IMG/VR virus record: IMGVR_UViG_3300042861_000797
Location: 1 to 25,551 of that record
Length of the DNA stretch: 25,551 bases
Direction: 5' to 3' (one strand)
From: a virus
In this document: positions 5,583 through 13,769 of the stretch, one piece after another
How positions within the stretch are numbered: the first letter of the stretch is position 1
How the letters are laid out: the number at the start of each line of letters is the position of its first letter
Position numbers and translations under genes: made by a program
Notes under the pieces: model-generated
Databases searched by the model: none
Seen by the model: only the letters and a program-made list of their open reading frames with translations
Told to the model about the DNA's origin: nothing

Positions 5583-5889
5583 CTTTAATAATTCCTAATT
5601 CAATTCTGTATTTTTTTATTTTGTCTCTGACAGGTTGGAACTCATCTCCGTTACTTGCCTTGTGTCCTTTACCGATCGCTTCATTGATCATTCCCTCGTT
5701 TTTTAAAATAAAAGACATTTTTTCTGAATTTGTCAACTCATAAGGAACAACTTCTGTTCTAATGAACTCTCGGATCATATCTTTTATTTTACCAATCTGT
5801 TCTGCTGGGTTCTGTTTTGTTCCGTGAACCATTACAGATGTTTGGTAGATCGTTCTACTCAAATCTAATATCTTCTTATCAAATCCCAT
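5572..5889 (-). CDS. Hypothetical helical protein (105 aa)
   Basis: No family is recognised. The sequence looks alpha-helical throughout (DKKILDLSRTIYQTS, AEQIGKIKDMIREFIRTEV, EKMSFILKNEGMINEAIGKG) with a basic C-terminus. It overlaps the 471-aa repeat gene by 11 bases upstream and the 62-aa gene by 11 bases downstream, so it belongs to the same unit. It shows none of the VEDTIQNGVK repeats of its neighbour. Confidence 0.7.
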   Translation of the reverse strand: MGFDKKILDLSRTIYQTSVMVHGTKQNPAEQIGKIKDMIREFIRTEVVPYELTNSEKMSFILKNEGMINEAIGKGHKASNGDEFQPVRDKIKKYRIELGIIKDGK

Positions 5890-7294
5890 CTTTATCTGTA
5901 TTTCTAATTACACCTTCAACTCTACCTCTATGGTTGTAAGAATCTTCAATTACTTCTTTCACATATTCTGTATGTGGTTTTGTTCTATCTTCTTGTCTAT
6001 GGTAATATAATCCCCAATCTCTATTACCATCTTGTGCTGGTAGTGGTTGTATTTCTTTAACACCATTTTCAAGTACATCCTTAACTTGAATCATAGGTGT
6101 GTATGTTGGAATCCCATCAACAAGTTCAAAATAACCGTGATCTTCACATCTATTGGATTTCCATGCTTTAAGTGCTTTAACACCATCTCTTATTGTTTGT
6201 TTCGCTTTAACCTTAAAAATTTCAGACATTAAACTAATATTTGAAATTTCTTTAGTTTCTTTAACACCATTTTCAATTGCGTCGTTAATGTTTTCTGTAA
6301 TCTCACAATTAGTTACCTGATGGTCTATTTGTTCCAAACTTTCCAACATACTTTCTTTGGTTTCTTTAACACCATTTTTAATTGTATTCATAACACGTAT
6401 GGTACGGAAAAGTCTATCCTCTTTGGCTTCCTTCACACCATTTTCAATAACATCATCAAGTAATTTTTGGACATCCAATGTATTATTTTCATTCATAAAT
6501 TCCATTGTAGATTCAAGGTCTCCAACACCAGGTGTTCTAACGTCTTTAACACCATTTTGAATTGTGTCTTCAACCGCACCCACTGGAGGCCACATCCGTG
6601 TTTGGGTCTCCTTTACCCCATTTTGAATGGTGTCTTCAATTATGAACTTGTTTCGGAATTCTATGTCGATGGTGTGTTTCACCCCATTTTGAATGGTGTC
6701 TTCAACGGTTTCTTTGCTGATATGCACCGTGTCTTCAGTGTGTTTCACCCCCTCTTGAATGGTGTCTTCAACTACACCGAACGCACTCCCATTTGCGTAT
6801 TGGGTGTACTTCACCCCCTCTTGAATGGTGTCTTCAACTTTTAAATCTAAAATTCGATTGTTTAATTTGGTGTCCTTCACCCCATTTTCAATTGTATTTT
6901 CCATTTTTTTATCAAAAAACTTCATAACATCAACATGATGGGCCTCTTTCACCCCATTTTGAATGGTGTCTTCAACGGCTTGGTTGCTATCAATTGCGTG
7001 ATTAAAAGTTGCCCACACCTTTGGTTTATTCAAAAATCTTGATTCAAACCAGTCCTTAATCAAATCTCTTTCTTCAGTACAGTCCTTACCTATTAGATCC
7101 AACTCATTTTGAAATAGATTATAGTTGAACCATAAGGTTTTATCTTTTGTGAACTCAATTATCCATTTTTTACTTTCAGTGAAGATCAACCAAGTTGATC
7201 CTTGTTTTGTCACATACTTGTCGGCACCTTCAACCATTTGGTCAAATATCCTAAAGACAAGTTTCTCTAATTTATTTCCTGTTGGATTTTTCAT
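5879..7294 (-). CDS. Repeat protein with about 12 copies of the motif VEDTIQNGVKxT (paralogue B)
   Basis: This 471-residue protein has two parts. Residues 1-95 form a folded domain (LWLIFTESKKW-type strands, then DCTEERDLIKDWFESRFLNKPK) clearly homologous to the start of the gene at 7291. From residue 107 a 12-residue motif recurs, with its conserved Ile at 111, 135, 157, 179, 201, 223, 245, 283, 305, 340, 368 and a Leu at 408, followed by two worn copies near 449 and 463. Between 135 and 245 the period is exactly 22 residues; later spacings are 22-40. Linkers between motifs share almost nothing. Signal peptide, membrane helix and enzyme motifs are absent. It starts by ATGA overlap with its paralogue. 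The function is unknown. Confidence 0.85.
   Translation of the reverse strand: MKNPTGNKLEKLVFRIFDQMVEGADKYVTKQGSTWLIFTESKKWIIEFTKDKTLWFNYNLFQNELDLIGKDCTEERDLIKDWFESRFLNKPKVWATFNHAIDSNQAVEDTIQNGVKEAHHVDVMKFFDKKMENTIENGVKDTKLNNRILDLKVEDTIQEGVKYTQYANGSAFGVVEDTIQEGVKHTEDTVHISKETVEDTIQNGVKHTIDIEFRNKFIIEDTIQNGVKETQTRMWPPVGAVEDTIQNGVKDVRTPGVGDLESTMEFMNENNTLDVQKLLDDVIENGVKEAKEDRLFRTIRVMNTIKNGVKETKESMLESLEQIDHQVTNCEITENINDAIENGVKETKEISNISLMSEIFKVKAKQTIRDGVKALKAWKSNRCEDHGYFELVDGIPTYTPMIQVKDVLENGVKEIQPLPAQDGNRDWGLYYHRQEDRTKPHTEYVKEVIEDSYNHRGRVEGVIRNTDKDGI
6050..6976 (-). repeat. In-frame repeat array of paralogue B
   Basis: The repeated core on the plus strand begins TTCACCCCATTTTGAATGG and is 28 bp long. 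Full-identity copies lie at 6678-6705 and 6948-6975. Close copies lie around 6611, 6747 and 6811, and outer copies differ mostly at wobble positions. The regular part has a 66-bp period; towards the gene's 3' end copies are diverged and irregularly spaced. Linkers are unrelated to each other. Confidence 0.85.
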
Positions 7295-8601
7295 TTTAAT
7301 TCAATTTTTTCTCCGTGTTTAATTGCATCATTAACAAGTGGTTGAAGTGGTTTATGTTCGTGTTGAGTATATTTCACACCGTTTTTAATAACCTCATCGC
7401 CATATAATTGGTATTTATCGTGAGATGTTTTTGTGATCTTAACCCCATTTTGAATGGTGTCTTCAACCCGATGCGGGCGTACAGAGCTGTTTGTTTTGGT
7501 GTGTTTCACCCCATTTTCAATGACATATTTTGTTCTCTGTTTTCTTGAACCATCATAACTTCGTTCTGTTTGTTTCACTCCATTTTTAATGGTGTGTTCA
7601 ACTATCTTTGTTTTGGTATAAATATTTTGTTTAGTTAACTTCACGCTATTTTCAATGAAGTATTCAACAACTTTTTCGTCATCCATCTCAAGGTCAATAG
7701 TTTCTTTCACTCCATTTTGAATCACATCTTTAATATCGGATATGATTTTGTGTTCATCGACTTCGGTGCGTTTCACTCCATTTTGGATGGTGTCTTCAAT
7801 GTGTGATGCCATATCAATGAATACTTCACGACTTTCTTTAACCCCATTTTGGATGGTGTCTTCAACTGGATACGATCTTTTAGTTGGGTTGGACATTGTG
7901 TGTTTCACCCCATTTTGAATGGTGTCTTCAAGGGAATTGAGATGGTTGCGAGTCCAATGTCGAGTGTGTTTCACCCCATTTTGAATGGCGTCTTTAACCC
8001 CCATATCCATACGAATTTTGGAAAAGGAGGTGCGTTTCACCCCATTTTGAATGGCATCTTCAACATATCCAATATGCAATTCCTGTAACTTCTCGGTCTC
8101 CTTCACCCCATTTTGAATGGCGTCTTCAACCAATATTAAGACTGATTGATTCCCTGTGTTGGTACGCTTCACTCCATTTTGAATGGTGTCTTCAACTTGG
8201 CGTTGTACCAATAGTTTTCCACTACTGGTGTGCTTCACCCCATTTTGAATGGTGTCTTCAATCTTGAGGGAGTCTATAGTTCCAAAGTCTGTGGTACGCT
8301 TCACCTCATTTTGAATGGTTTTATCAACCTTTGGTTTATTCAAAAACCTATCTTCAAACCATCTGGTTATGTATTCTTTATTTTCAACGCAATCCATACC
8401 AACCAATTCCATTTCATTTTTGAATAGTTTGTAATTATACCATAGAGTTCCCCCTACAGTATATTCAACAACCCATTGTTTTTCATTGGTAAAGATGAGC
8501 CATAAACTACCACTATGATTGTATTGGTCAACACCTTCAATCATTTCGTCAAATAGTTTGAACAAAATCTTGTCTAATTTTTTTCCTGTTGGATTTTTCA
8601 T
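7291..8601 (-). CDS. Repeat protein with 16 copies of the motif VEDTIQNGVKxT (paralogue A)
   Basis: Residues 1-91 of this 436-residue protein are the same domain as in the following gene (MKNPTGKKLDKILFKLFDEM, LWLIFTNEKQW, LWYNYKLFKNEMELVGMDC, ITRWFEDRFLNKPK). From residue 92 to the C-terminus a 12-residue motif recurs 16 times at a 22-residue period, with one 23-residue step. The order is conserved Val/Ile, Glu, Asp, Thr, Ile, Gln, Asn, Gly, Val, Lys, variable, Thr. The ten residues between motifs are all different. Protein-level conservation with wobble-base changes in outer copies shows real coding. Inner copies are nearly identical in DNA. No family is recognised; a scaffold, binding array or processed polyprotein are all possible. 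It begins one base after the Janus-like gene. Confidence 0.87.
   Translation of the reverse strand: MKNPTGKKLDKILFKLFDEMIEGVDQYNHSGSLWLIFTNEKQWVVEYTVGGTLWYNYKLFKNEMELVGMDCVENKEYITRWFEDRFLNKPKVDKTIQNEVKRTTDFGTIDSLKIEDTIQNGVKHTSSGKLLVQRQVEDTIQNGVKRTNTGNQSVLILVEDAIQNGVKETEKLQELHIGYVEDAIQNGVKRTSFSKIRMDMGVKDAIQNGVKHTRHWTRNHLNSLEDTIQNGVKHTMSNPTKRSYPVEDTIQNGVKESREVFIDMASHIEDTIQNGVKRTEVDEHKIISDIKDVIQNGVKETIDLEMDDEKVVEYFIENSVKLTKQNIYTKTKIVEHTIKNGVKQTERSYDGSRKQRTKYVIENGVKHTKTNSSVRPHRVEDTIQNGVKITKTSHDKYQLYGDEVIKNGVKYTQHEHKPLQPLVNDAIKHGEKIELK
7300..8328 (-). repeat. In-frame repeat array of paralogue A (66-bp period)
   Basis: Sixteen copies of the core are present. The 28-bp core is identical at 8234-8261 and 7904-7931, and these match full-identity copies in paralogue B. 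Copies between about 7770 and 8261 differ from it at only one to three positions. Copies at the gene's 3' end (7300-7720) are worn but keep the peptide. Linkers of about 38 bp are all different and look richer in G and C than neighbouring genes. Confidence 0.87.
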
Positions 8602-11904: not shown

Positions 11905-11934
11905 ATAAAAAACCCCACTTTTGAGGGTGGGGTT
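11905..11934 (-). terminator. Intrinsic terminator after the tagged-protein genes
   Basis: The stem AACCCCAC / GTGGGGTT with an 8-base loop is followed on the minus strand by a run of six T. It closes the unit that ends with the gene at 11974, about 40 bases downstream of that gene's stop. Confidence 0.88.
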
Positions 11935-11973: not shown

Positions 11974-12429
11974 CTACACAATCTTTAATTCCGTTGCGCT
12001 GGGGCTTACTCTCCTCAAATTGTAGACATCACGCAACCATTTTTTCGTAAGTCTTTGTATTTCAGAATACTTAAGACCAAAACCTTCTTCTAAAAATGAC
12101 CAAATAGTATAATAATCAATGTGAATATTATTATGACCTTCATAGTGTAAGATAATATTATGTCCCTTCCCATAACGATATAAGGTTGATGGGGGTCTTC
12201 CTATGCCTTGGGCAACATCCATATCGTTAAACAAATTAAGATAGTCCATAGGAGTTTCAATTCCTGTCAATTTTTTAAGATTCTCAACCCCTCCAACCAT
12301 TTCAACAGCAGTTTGCCAACCTTCGTCTTTAATCATATCAATTAAAGAATCCTTGGCAGCATTTTCTTTAATAACCCTATTTACGATATTGGTTAGATCA
12401 GATTCTGTTAGTTGGATTATTTTTTTCAT
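11974..12429 (-). CDS. Protein with N-terminal LTESDL...RVIKE tag (151 aa), possible packaged head protein
   Basis: The first 22 residues (MKKIIQLTESDL, then IVNRVIKE) form a tag shared with the next gene upstream (MKNIVKLTESDL, then IVQRVIQE), though the rest of the two proteins differs. The tag ends in I-x-E before Asn, which fits the (L/I)-x-E cleavage pattern of T4-type prohead proteases. The tag may thus be a capsid-targeting propeptide, as in T4 internal proteins. The body has SLIDMIKDEGWQTAVEMVGGVENLKKLTG and a C-terminal domain with WSFLEEGFGLKYSEIQRLTKKWL. No enzyme motif is seen. It overlaps the upstream tagged gene by ATGA and is followed by a terminator. Confidence 0.75.
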   Translation of the reverse strand: MKKIIQLTESDLTNIVNRVIKENAAKDSLIDMIKDEGWQTAVEMVGGVENLKKLTGIETPMDYLNLFNDMDVAQGIGRPPSTLYRYGKGHNIILHYEGHNNIHIDYYTIWSFLEEGFGLKYSEIQRLTKKWLRDVYNLRRVSPSATELKIV

Positions 12430-12761
12430 ATTAGATTTTTGATCTCAGTTTTCACTTTACCAAGTTCATTGAAGTCAAACTCTTTGGCGAATTTACTACC
12501 TTGTTTTTTTACGGTAATACCATCTTTTCTGAACATAACTTGACCAACATGTTTACCATCACAATGAATCTCAAAGTCATTTCCAACTTGTTTTACTTTA
12601 CAATCTTGTGATTTGATAAAGTTCTTAATTGTGTCTTGAAATTTTTCAATCTTAACGTCAGCATCTTTTTCCTTAACACCTTTATCTGTTTTTCCTTCTT
12701 GGATCACTCTTTGTACGATTCTTACTAAATCGGACTCTGTTAGTTTTACAATATTTTTCAT
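12426..12761 (-). CDS. Protein with N-terminal LTESDL...RVIQE tag (111 aa), possible packaged head protein
   Basis: The start at 12759-12761 is chosen because it puts the tag MKNIVKLTESDLVRIVQRVIQ at the N-terminus, as in the following gene. A frame eight codons longer is open. After the tag, which ends in VIQEG (I-x-E before Gly), comes a charged linker (KTDKGVKEKDADVKIEKFQ). A small domain follows with a Cys pair region (SQDCKVKQ, FEIHCDGKHVGQVMF). Sharing only the tag with its neighbour, it looks like a second cargo with the same targeting peptide. It is flanked upstream by the terminator at 12784-12811 and has no visible TAnnTTTG promoter. Confidence 0.75.
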   Translation of the reverse strand: MKNIVKLTESDLVRIVQRVIQEGKTDKGVKEKDADVKIEKFQDTIKNFIKSQDCKVKQVGNDFEIHCDGKHVGQVMFRKDGITVKKQGSKFAKEFDFNELGKVKTEIKNLI

Positions 12762-12783
12762 AATAATAAATATTCGGTAAAAC

Positions 12784-12811
12784 AAAAAACCCCTCCGATT
12801 AAGAAGGGGTT
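12784..12811 (-). terminator. Intrinsic terminator after the SPFH gene
   Basis: The stem AACCCCT / AGGGGTT with a 10-base loop is followed on the minus strand by six T. It lies a few bases downstream of the SPFH stop at 12819 and separates that unit from the tagged genes. Confidence 0.87.
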
Positions 12812-12818
12812 AATTTTT

Positions 12819-13769
12819 TTAGTTCTTTATATTAAGTAAGGTTCCTGTACCTCCCGCCATTGTGGTTGGTAGTTTCCCATCCCATGCGTTCCATTTAACA
12901 TATTCAATATACAGAGGCGATAACTGATTCTGTTTAATCTTGATCGCTAATGCCGCCGCCTGTGCGTTGATGATAGTTTCTGCTGAGTCAGCTCGTGCTA
13001 CCGCCACCTTACGTCTACCTTCAGAGATTGCAGCAATTGCTTGTTGTTCTGACGCTTCTGCTTGTTGGATCGCTTTGGTCTTTGCGATGATTGACTCTTG
13101 TAATGCATCCGGTGGAACAATATTAGTTCGTAATTGTGATACATTAAACCATTTAGATAATCTCACATTACATTCCAACACAATCGCAGCTTCAAACGCT
13201 TGTCGGTGATTAAAGATACTATCAACTTCCCAAGTGTTAGATACGTCATTCACCGCTCCGATGATCGCATTTTTTAACCAACCTTGTTCAACATCTTTTA
13301 TATCTCTACGTAAATTAACGAACATATCTCCAATCGCATCCTCACGTAATGAGTAGTTGAATGTGGGTTTAATTGTTGCTGAGAACCCACCTTTTAAGAT
13401 TACCGGTTGGTCATCATATTCAATGTGTTGTTGGTATGTAGGAAACTCTAATACTTGTTCTGTCCAAGTGTTATAAACCACCCATCCTGTTTTGTATTGG
13501 TAACTTGATACTCCACGTTGATTACCAACTAAATTGATTTTTAAACCTTTGTGACCAGAATCAATCTTTTCAATCGCATATGGTTGGAACATTGATAATA
13601 ACAAACCAACAATAAAAATTACTAATGGTTTAATTAACCATGATGATTGGAATTTTTCTCTGTTGTCACCCCATCGGTCAGCTTCAACTTTATACATATT
13701 GTCTCGTGTTTTTAATGCGATGAGACCTGCCGCAATCAAACTTGTAATAAAAATTAATAAACTTATCAT
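12819..13769 (-). CDS. SPFH/Band-7 (prohibitin-like) membrane protein
   Basis: The 316 residues contain two hydrophobic segments (about 3-20 and 46-66), then a Band-7 domain (about 66-230: IDSGHKGLKINLVGNQRGV, YNTWTEQVLEFPTYQQHIEYD, NDVSNTWEVDSIFNHRQAFEA). An alanine/glutamate-rich coiled coil follows at about 229-280 (AIQQAEASEQQAIAAI, ARADSAETIINAQA). The end, LPTTMAGGTGTLLNI, is typical of this family. Such proteins form large ring or cage assemblies at membranes and often restrain membrane proteases. Prohibitin-like genes are known from large phages, where they may guard or remodel the host membrane. It overlaps the upstream 71-aa membrane gene by ATGA, so the two may work together. Confidence 0.88.
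   Translation of the reverse strand: MISLLIFITSLIAAGLIALKTRDNMYKVEADRWGDNREKFQSSWLIKPLVIFIVGLLLSMFQPYAIEKIDSGHKGLKINLVGNQRGVSSYQYKTGWVVYNTWTEQVLEFPTYQQHIEYDDQPVILKGGFSATIKPTFNYSLREDAIGDMFVNLRRDIKDVEQGWLKNAIIGAVNDVSNTWEVDSIFNHRQAFEAAIVLECNVRLSKWFNVSQLRTNIVPPDALQESIIAKTKAIQQAEASEQQAIAAISEGRRKVAVARADSAETIINAQAAALAIKIKQNQLSPLYIEYVKWNAWDGKLPTTMAGGTGTLLNIKN

Follow-up and report, generated by a model that had tools for sequence, protein, structure and literature searches.

Two adjacent genes on a fragment of viral DNA encode proteins that share a 22-residue N-terminal tag, and this tag probably serves as a capsid-targeting propeptide in the manner of the capsid-targeting sequences (CTSs) of phage T4, which would make it part of a new family of T4-like cleavable propeptides. 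We favor this reading because the tag stands at the N-terminus of 145 distinct protein bodies; because it ends in I/L/V-x-E in 65 of the 67 members of an unbiased set; because an S77 protease accompanies a full gp23-type major capsid protein (MCP) in 13 of 13 large records; because two families of bodies, F and Y, swap one type of tag for another; and because an upstream motif, TATTTAT, is common to tagged genes and head genes.

One N-terminus on two unrelated proteins

The window analyzed here comprises all 25,551 nt of the IMG/VR record IMGVR_UViG_3300042861_000797, a virus fragment. Its two tagged genes overlap in the sequence ATGA, have a terminator-like hairpin on either side, and thus form a small isolated unit (Table 1); called mechanically, gene 2 would start at a TTG 24 nt 5′ of the ATG used here. 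A first-pass annotation of the window had described the two N-termini as nearly the same over 22 residues before the proteins diverge, and BLASTP bears this out, with 15 of 22 residues identical (E = 3e-7) and no similarity found beyond residue 22. Among 990 pairs of N-termini in the window this pair is the best match (14/21 identical after the Met), and the chance expectation for pairs this similar in the window is ∼8e-10. The DNA encoding the two tags is identical at 47 of 66 nt and carries synonymous changes at 7 of the 15 shared residues, which indicates that the peptide, not the DNA, is conserved. The tags end in VIKE↓N in protein 1 and VIQE↓G in protein 2 (arrows mark predicted cuts), and are the only two copies of this tag, hereafter type A, in the 25.5 kb.

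The pair adjoins the gene of a Band 7/SPFH protein (phrog_200; window 12819-13769, minus strand), relatives of which occur at 64-100% identity on at least 80 viral contigs. Elsewhere, at 5879-8601 (minus strand), two adjacent paralogues each consist of about a dozen repeats of ∼24 residues with the core VEDTIQNGVK, for which the best match is merely a short Dodecin-like stretch.

Table 1. Features of the tagged gene pair, in window coordinates
Feature	Position	Strand	Remark
Gene 1	11974-12429	-	ORF, 151 aa
Gene 2	12426-12761	-	ORF, 111 aa; counted from ATG
ATGA overlap, gene 2 stop/gene 1 start	12426..12429	-	Two-gene unit
Type A tag, protein 1, residues 1-22: MKKIIQLTESDLTNIVNRVIKE	12364..12429	-	Predicted cut before Asn23
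Type A tag, protein 2, residues 1-22: MKNIVKLTESDLVRIVQRVIQE	12696..12761	-	Predicted cut before Gly23
Protein 1 body, residues 23-151 + stop	11974..12363	-	Multi-copy family
Protein 2 body, residues 23-111 + stop	12426..12695	-	Small alpha/beta domain
TATTTAT motif	12766..12772	-	Late-promoter candidate, 4 nt 5′ of gene 2 ATG
Terminator-like hairpin closing upstream Band 7 gene	12788..12811	-	Separates tagged pair from it
Terminator-like hairpin 3′ of gene 1	11911..11934	-	Plus strand qualifies too

Spread and anatomy of the tag

A degenerate DNA pattern for the tag matched at least 120 stretches in IMG/VR. Together with other viral loci that we fetched, these matches yielded at least 181 tagged proteins with the 145 distinct bodies, and the tag sits essentially always at the very N-terminus. 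Large tagged records (20 in all) hold between 1 and 17 type A copies, so that the occurrence of the tag on unrelated proteins, first noticed in the window alone, extends to many carriers per tagged genome. Cultured phages did not yield the tag, and the consensus had no match by tblastn in 50,697 GenBank phage records. Among 84,980 bacterial and archaeal species genomes the pattern is essentially absent, being found on two contigs; one bacterial match (L288) lies outside any ORF of 80 aa or more. A match to a “virion structural protein” of S-PM2 was dropped: its E-value is 8, and it falls inside the ORF (position 1501, with the start at 1270). The tag strings had no match in the literature searched, in which we likewise found no published virion proteomics or N-terminal sequencing of tagged phages.

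The search pattern had I-x-E partly built in, and conservation figures based on it were therefore replaced by those from an unbiased set of 67 proteins picked by residues 1-12 alone. In that set residue 20 is I in 56 proteins, L in seven, and V in four, residue 21 is variable, and residue 22 is E in all except two (one M, one Q). Residue 23 is Q (14), E (14), N (13), S (6), G (5), or others. Across 127 non-redundant tagged proteins, conservation is strong up to residue 22, partial at residue 23, and falls to background from residues 24-26. The I-x-E ending noted in the window is thus nearly invariant as aliphatic-x-E, and this is the L/I-x-E cleavage pattern of T4 gp21.

The conserved part of the tag, residues 4-19, is a basic amphipathic helix, which, as heads assemble, would dock its protein in the prohead core. 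Protein 2 gave a weak structural model (mean pLDDT 71), with a helix that stops at residue 21 before a disordered linker; in the better model, that of protein 1 (pLDDT 88), the tag helix continues past residue 22 into the body, which counts against a propeptide. The similarity of the tag to residues 29-48 of the scaffold protein is weak (11 of 300 shuffles scored equally well), which likewise counts against it.

Head machinery in tagged records

If the tag is a propeptide of the T4 kind, the phage's own gp21-type S77 protease would cut it after residue 22 (I-x-E↓) and leave the mature body in the head, from which it may be ejected with the DNA. A gp21-like prohead protease, which the first-pass annotation proposed looking for, is found in most large tagged records and not in the window: PF03420 (T4 gp21, S77) scores above its cut-off in 13 of 20, and a full PF07068 (gp23) MCP is present in the same 13. 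The proteases keep the HP and SSRG motifs of T4 gp21. The portal region is followed by the genes of the protease, a small protein, a scaffold-like protein, and the capsid protein, in this order; the predicted MCP propeptide end SFLINE↓A aligns with SFLTE↓A of T4, and in tagged records with a full capsid gene the MCP propeptides end in I-N-E. The residue after the predicted cut (P1′) is mostly Q, N, or E in the tags as against A, S, or T at the MCP sites, and this difference counts against the propeptide reading.

The window holds no prohead protease, as its record is a fragment. Of the seven large records that have none, four have no gp23 family match and three have MCP-like fragments only; the G001-type terminase and the phrog_207 protease are absent from all seven, and a general terminase family, searched for in four of them, gave no match. 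These seven look like incomplete records, and we dropped them as counter-examples since terminase and full-length MCP are missing along with the protease. Absence of the protease from the window and from 7 of the 20 large records nevertheless counts against the propeptide reading, with incompleteness as the sole explanation.

Small ORFs in G013, G014, G015, and G016 (e.g., L286 near 11655) encode separate pieces of a gp23-type capsid protein, and among them is a 207-aa open frame with a propeptide-like part ending LLLSE↓Q.

Some carriers are located in the head gene cluster itself. In G015, which is related to the window phage (Band 7 protein 80%), the gene directly 3′ of the protease gene encodes a 92-aa protein tagged MKKVIKLNEADLEKLVQKIIRE. 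Such positions would suit tags that act in head maturation only, their cleavage marking scaffold-like proteins of the prohead core for degradation or expulsion, with few or none staying in the mature head or reaching the host; most T4 core proteins are indeed cleaved and leave (PMC9026906). The many diverse bodies behind the tag, some with enzyme-like domains (esterase-like, annexin-like, PG-binding), fit cargo better than scaffold, and we consider a role confined to maturation quite improbable.

Exchange of tag types

Two records, G001 and G002, were read gene by gene for N-terminal families, and both hold further tags: type B (MKIIITENQYKLIKE↓N), type C (MNLQESIRRILRE↓E and MKELIRHIIKE↓E), and type D (ILGMHKSAIAREFLGE↓Q). 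With all types counted, each of the two genomes has about 40 carriers as defined by regular expressions, a figure to be read with the caution that the types were drawn partly by eye and some carrier calls may be false.

The same body can stand behind different tags. Family F, to which the body of protein 1 belongs, has a type A tag in the window. In G001 its copies have a type A-like tag, type B (repeatedly), or no tag; the tag is of type C in G002 and L148, and untagged copies occur in L183 and L186 as well. Family Y (RYMFFSNLEQ...), encoded near the MCP gene in many records, has type A or A-like tags in some records and type C in others, all with aliphatic-x-E ends. The conserved proteins beside TerL and MCP mostly have related N-termini, with I-x-E, L-x-E, or V-x-E before A or V: those before TerL have ...KIINE↓APIDY or ...IIKE↓APIDY, and after MCP the sequence is ...KVLRE↓ATSESGSRGSY.

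A wider proposal would be that the interchangeable types A, B, C, and D, all ending in aliphatic-x-E, amount to a general head-import code by which each genome loads about 40 different proteins into a single virion; the head would then deliver many proteins at once, and cargo would be swapped by exchanging tags. We put this forward tentatively, giving it slightly less than an even chance of being right.

A 365-aa protein of G001 (G001:C1:30782, plus strand) has an internal type B-like stretch, TTTENQYKLIKE↓N, directly before its family F body. Family F has more than a dozen copies in G001, some of them fused to larger proteins; copies on G001:C1 (L241-L255) include those at 78977, 166712, 239222, and 283644.

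A motif upstream of tagged genes and head genes

Tagged genes and head genes have the motif TATTTAT upstream in common. It was first picked by eye in the upstream regions of G001 and G002, where ATAAA often follows it, and was then tested on other loci. In G001 it precedes 24 of 25 tagged genes and 24 of 40 untagged structural genes, and 18 of 80 untagged genes in the 12-107 kb region. At loci that played no part in its discovery it is found at 117 of 136 tagged as against 557 of 1484 untagged genes (p = 5e-29), and its enrichment at tagged genes far exceeds that of every other ordering of the same letters. By analogy with T4 the motif is a candidate late-type promoter, and tagged proteins would then be made late, from promoters resembling those of head genes. 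G001 also encodes a sigma-70-like factor.

Given that the tag always begins at the start codon, behind this common promoter-like motif, one might suppose that what is kept is a 5′ coding region serving translation initiation or recombination, for expression or gene shuffling, rather than a peptide. The codons of the invariant residues, however, vary freely, and the different sequences of types B, C, and D stand at this position and share the peptide ending; we regard such a module as very improbable indeed.

Bodies of the tagged proteins

Tagged proteins are smaller than untagged ones (median 146 vs. 214 aa), and membrane-like proteins are rare among them. Known domains are few: PG_binding_1 occurs in five, and LysM, SLT, annexin-like, UPF0227, and alpha/beta-hydrolase domains in single proteins, and some tagged proteins match PHROG tail or baseplate families. 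Both window proteins gave only sub-threshold matches in protein family libraries (YfbU, LEF-11, phrog_5224). Protein 1 has no known fold: a fold search drew a blank in the PDB, where the best E was 0.33, and its matches among uncultured phages were all weak. Protein 2 has relatives in L092, L143, and L286. The homologue in L286 (5357-6013, plus strand) is joined, behind I-N-E↓G, to a family Y body, a family that carries its own tag elsewhere.

The peptidoglycan-binding, LysM, and transglycosylase domains and the tail or baseplate matches among the cargo would also suit a docking role elsewhere, in which the peptide gathers proteins at a different structure of phage or host (the tail or baseplate, a membrane, or a replication compartment) and I-x-E is no cleavage site at all. 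Only the N-terminal helix is common to carriers, and a basic amphipathic helix could bind other partners. We judge this unlikely, given that an invariant Glu after a variable residue, repeated in several tag types, has the pattern of a protease site and not of a helix end, and that the tag is found together with an S77 protease for which the predicted site in the capsid protein is of this form too.

Should the propeptide reading hold, unannotated proteins of widespread uncultured phages would become a testable set of head cargo, and the tagged proteins might be the first that reach the host; that they act there as early effectors, as first suggested for the window pair, is a guess. Capsid targeting of the T4 kind would no longer be a matter of three internal proteins in a single phage but an import code in wide use, and a sequence rule would be at hand for spotting injected proteins in metagenomes.

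Comparison with known systems

The first-pass annotation had likened the tags to T4 targeting peptides, and the likeness is well supported as to kind (the I-x-E end, the protease, the swapping of tags, and the promoter motif). The T4 CTSs of IPI, IPII, and IPIII, processed by gp21, are likewise short N-terminal peptides common to otherwise unrelated proteins, with the same L/I-x-E end and the same split into a conserved docking part and a cleavage tripeptide. T4 also combines a gp21-family S77 protease with a gp23-type capsid, in a head gene order that matches that of the tagged phages. Its gp21 cuts after L/I-X-E, and in the CTSs, of 10-19 residues, residues 4 and 7 serve mainly for targeting and residues 8 and 10 for processing (PMC9026906). 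The type A tag, in contrast, is 22 residues long, has mostly Q, N, or E at P1′, and occurs on up to 17 carriers per genome, in addition to the other tag types, compared with three internal proteins in T4. IPII and IPIII start MKTYQEFIAE↓A in the T4 record, and no homology of the tag to MKTYQEFIAE was detectable, either against the T4 sequences from the record or by tblastn of the tag, which met no T4-like phage apart from the S-PM2 match with E = 8; lacking homology, and with cleavage and packaging as predictions, the tag is not a demonstrated member of the T4 CTS group.

The phages with phiKZ/SPN3US-type ejection proteins (gp175/gp245 protease) are large, as the tagged ones are, and in them many head proteins are cut after x-E by a gp21 relative and a protein bolus is ejected (PMC9026906). 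Unlike these, the tagged phages have a gp23-like capsid and an I/L/V-x-E motif; residue 20 of the tag is I, L, or V in 67/67 proteins, as against S/A-x-E in phiKZ. Huge phages of freshwater Bacteroidetes that encode bS21 have, according to the part of the report used here, genomes that reach 331 kb, a single region that combines terminase, portal, prohead protease, and MCP as in the tagged phages, and late expression caught by metatranscriptomes; that part does not mention N-terminal tags (PMC9723584).

By MCP (about 41%), Flavobacterium phage vB_FspM_immuto (NC_055915) is one of the closest cultured relatives. It lacks the type A tag by tblastn, and no virion proteomics of it was met in those portions of the Baltic Flavobacterium phage paper that we drew on. 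It has a gp21 protease, an MCP site IVSE↓A, and several repeated N-termini of its own that end in x-x-E (MKKSQLRQIIKE↓A and RMQKLAGIITE↓S). In this phage (L238-L240), F(D/N)LKKFLVENKLTxNSxxLxE occurs in about four genes and F(R/K)RMQ(K/F)LAGIITES in two, and some of the repeated N-termini sit just before the terminase gene.
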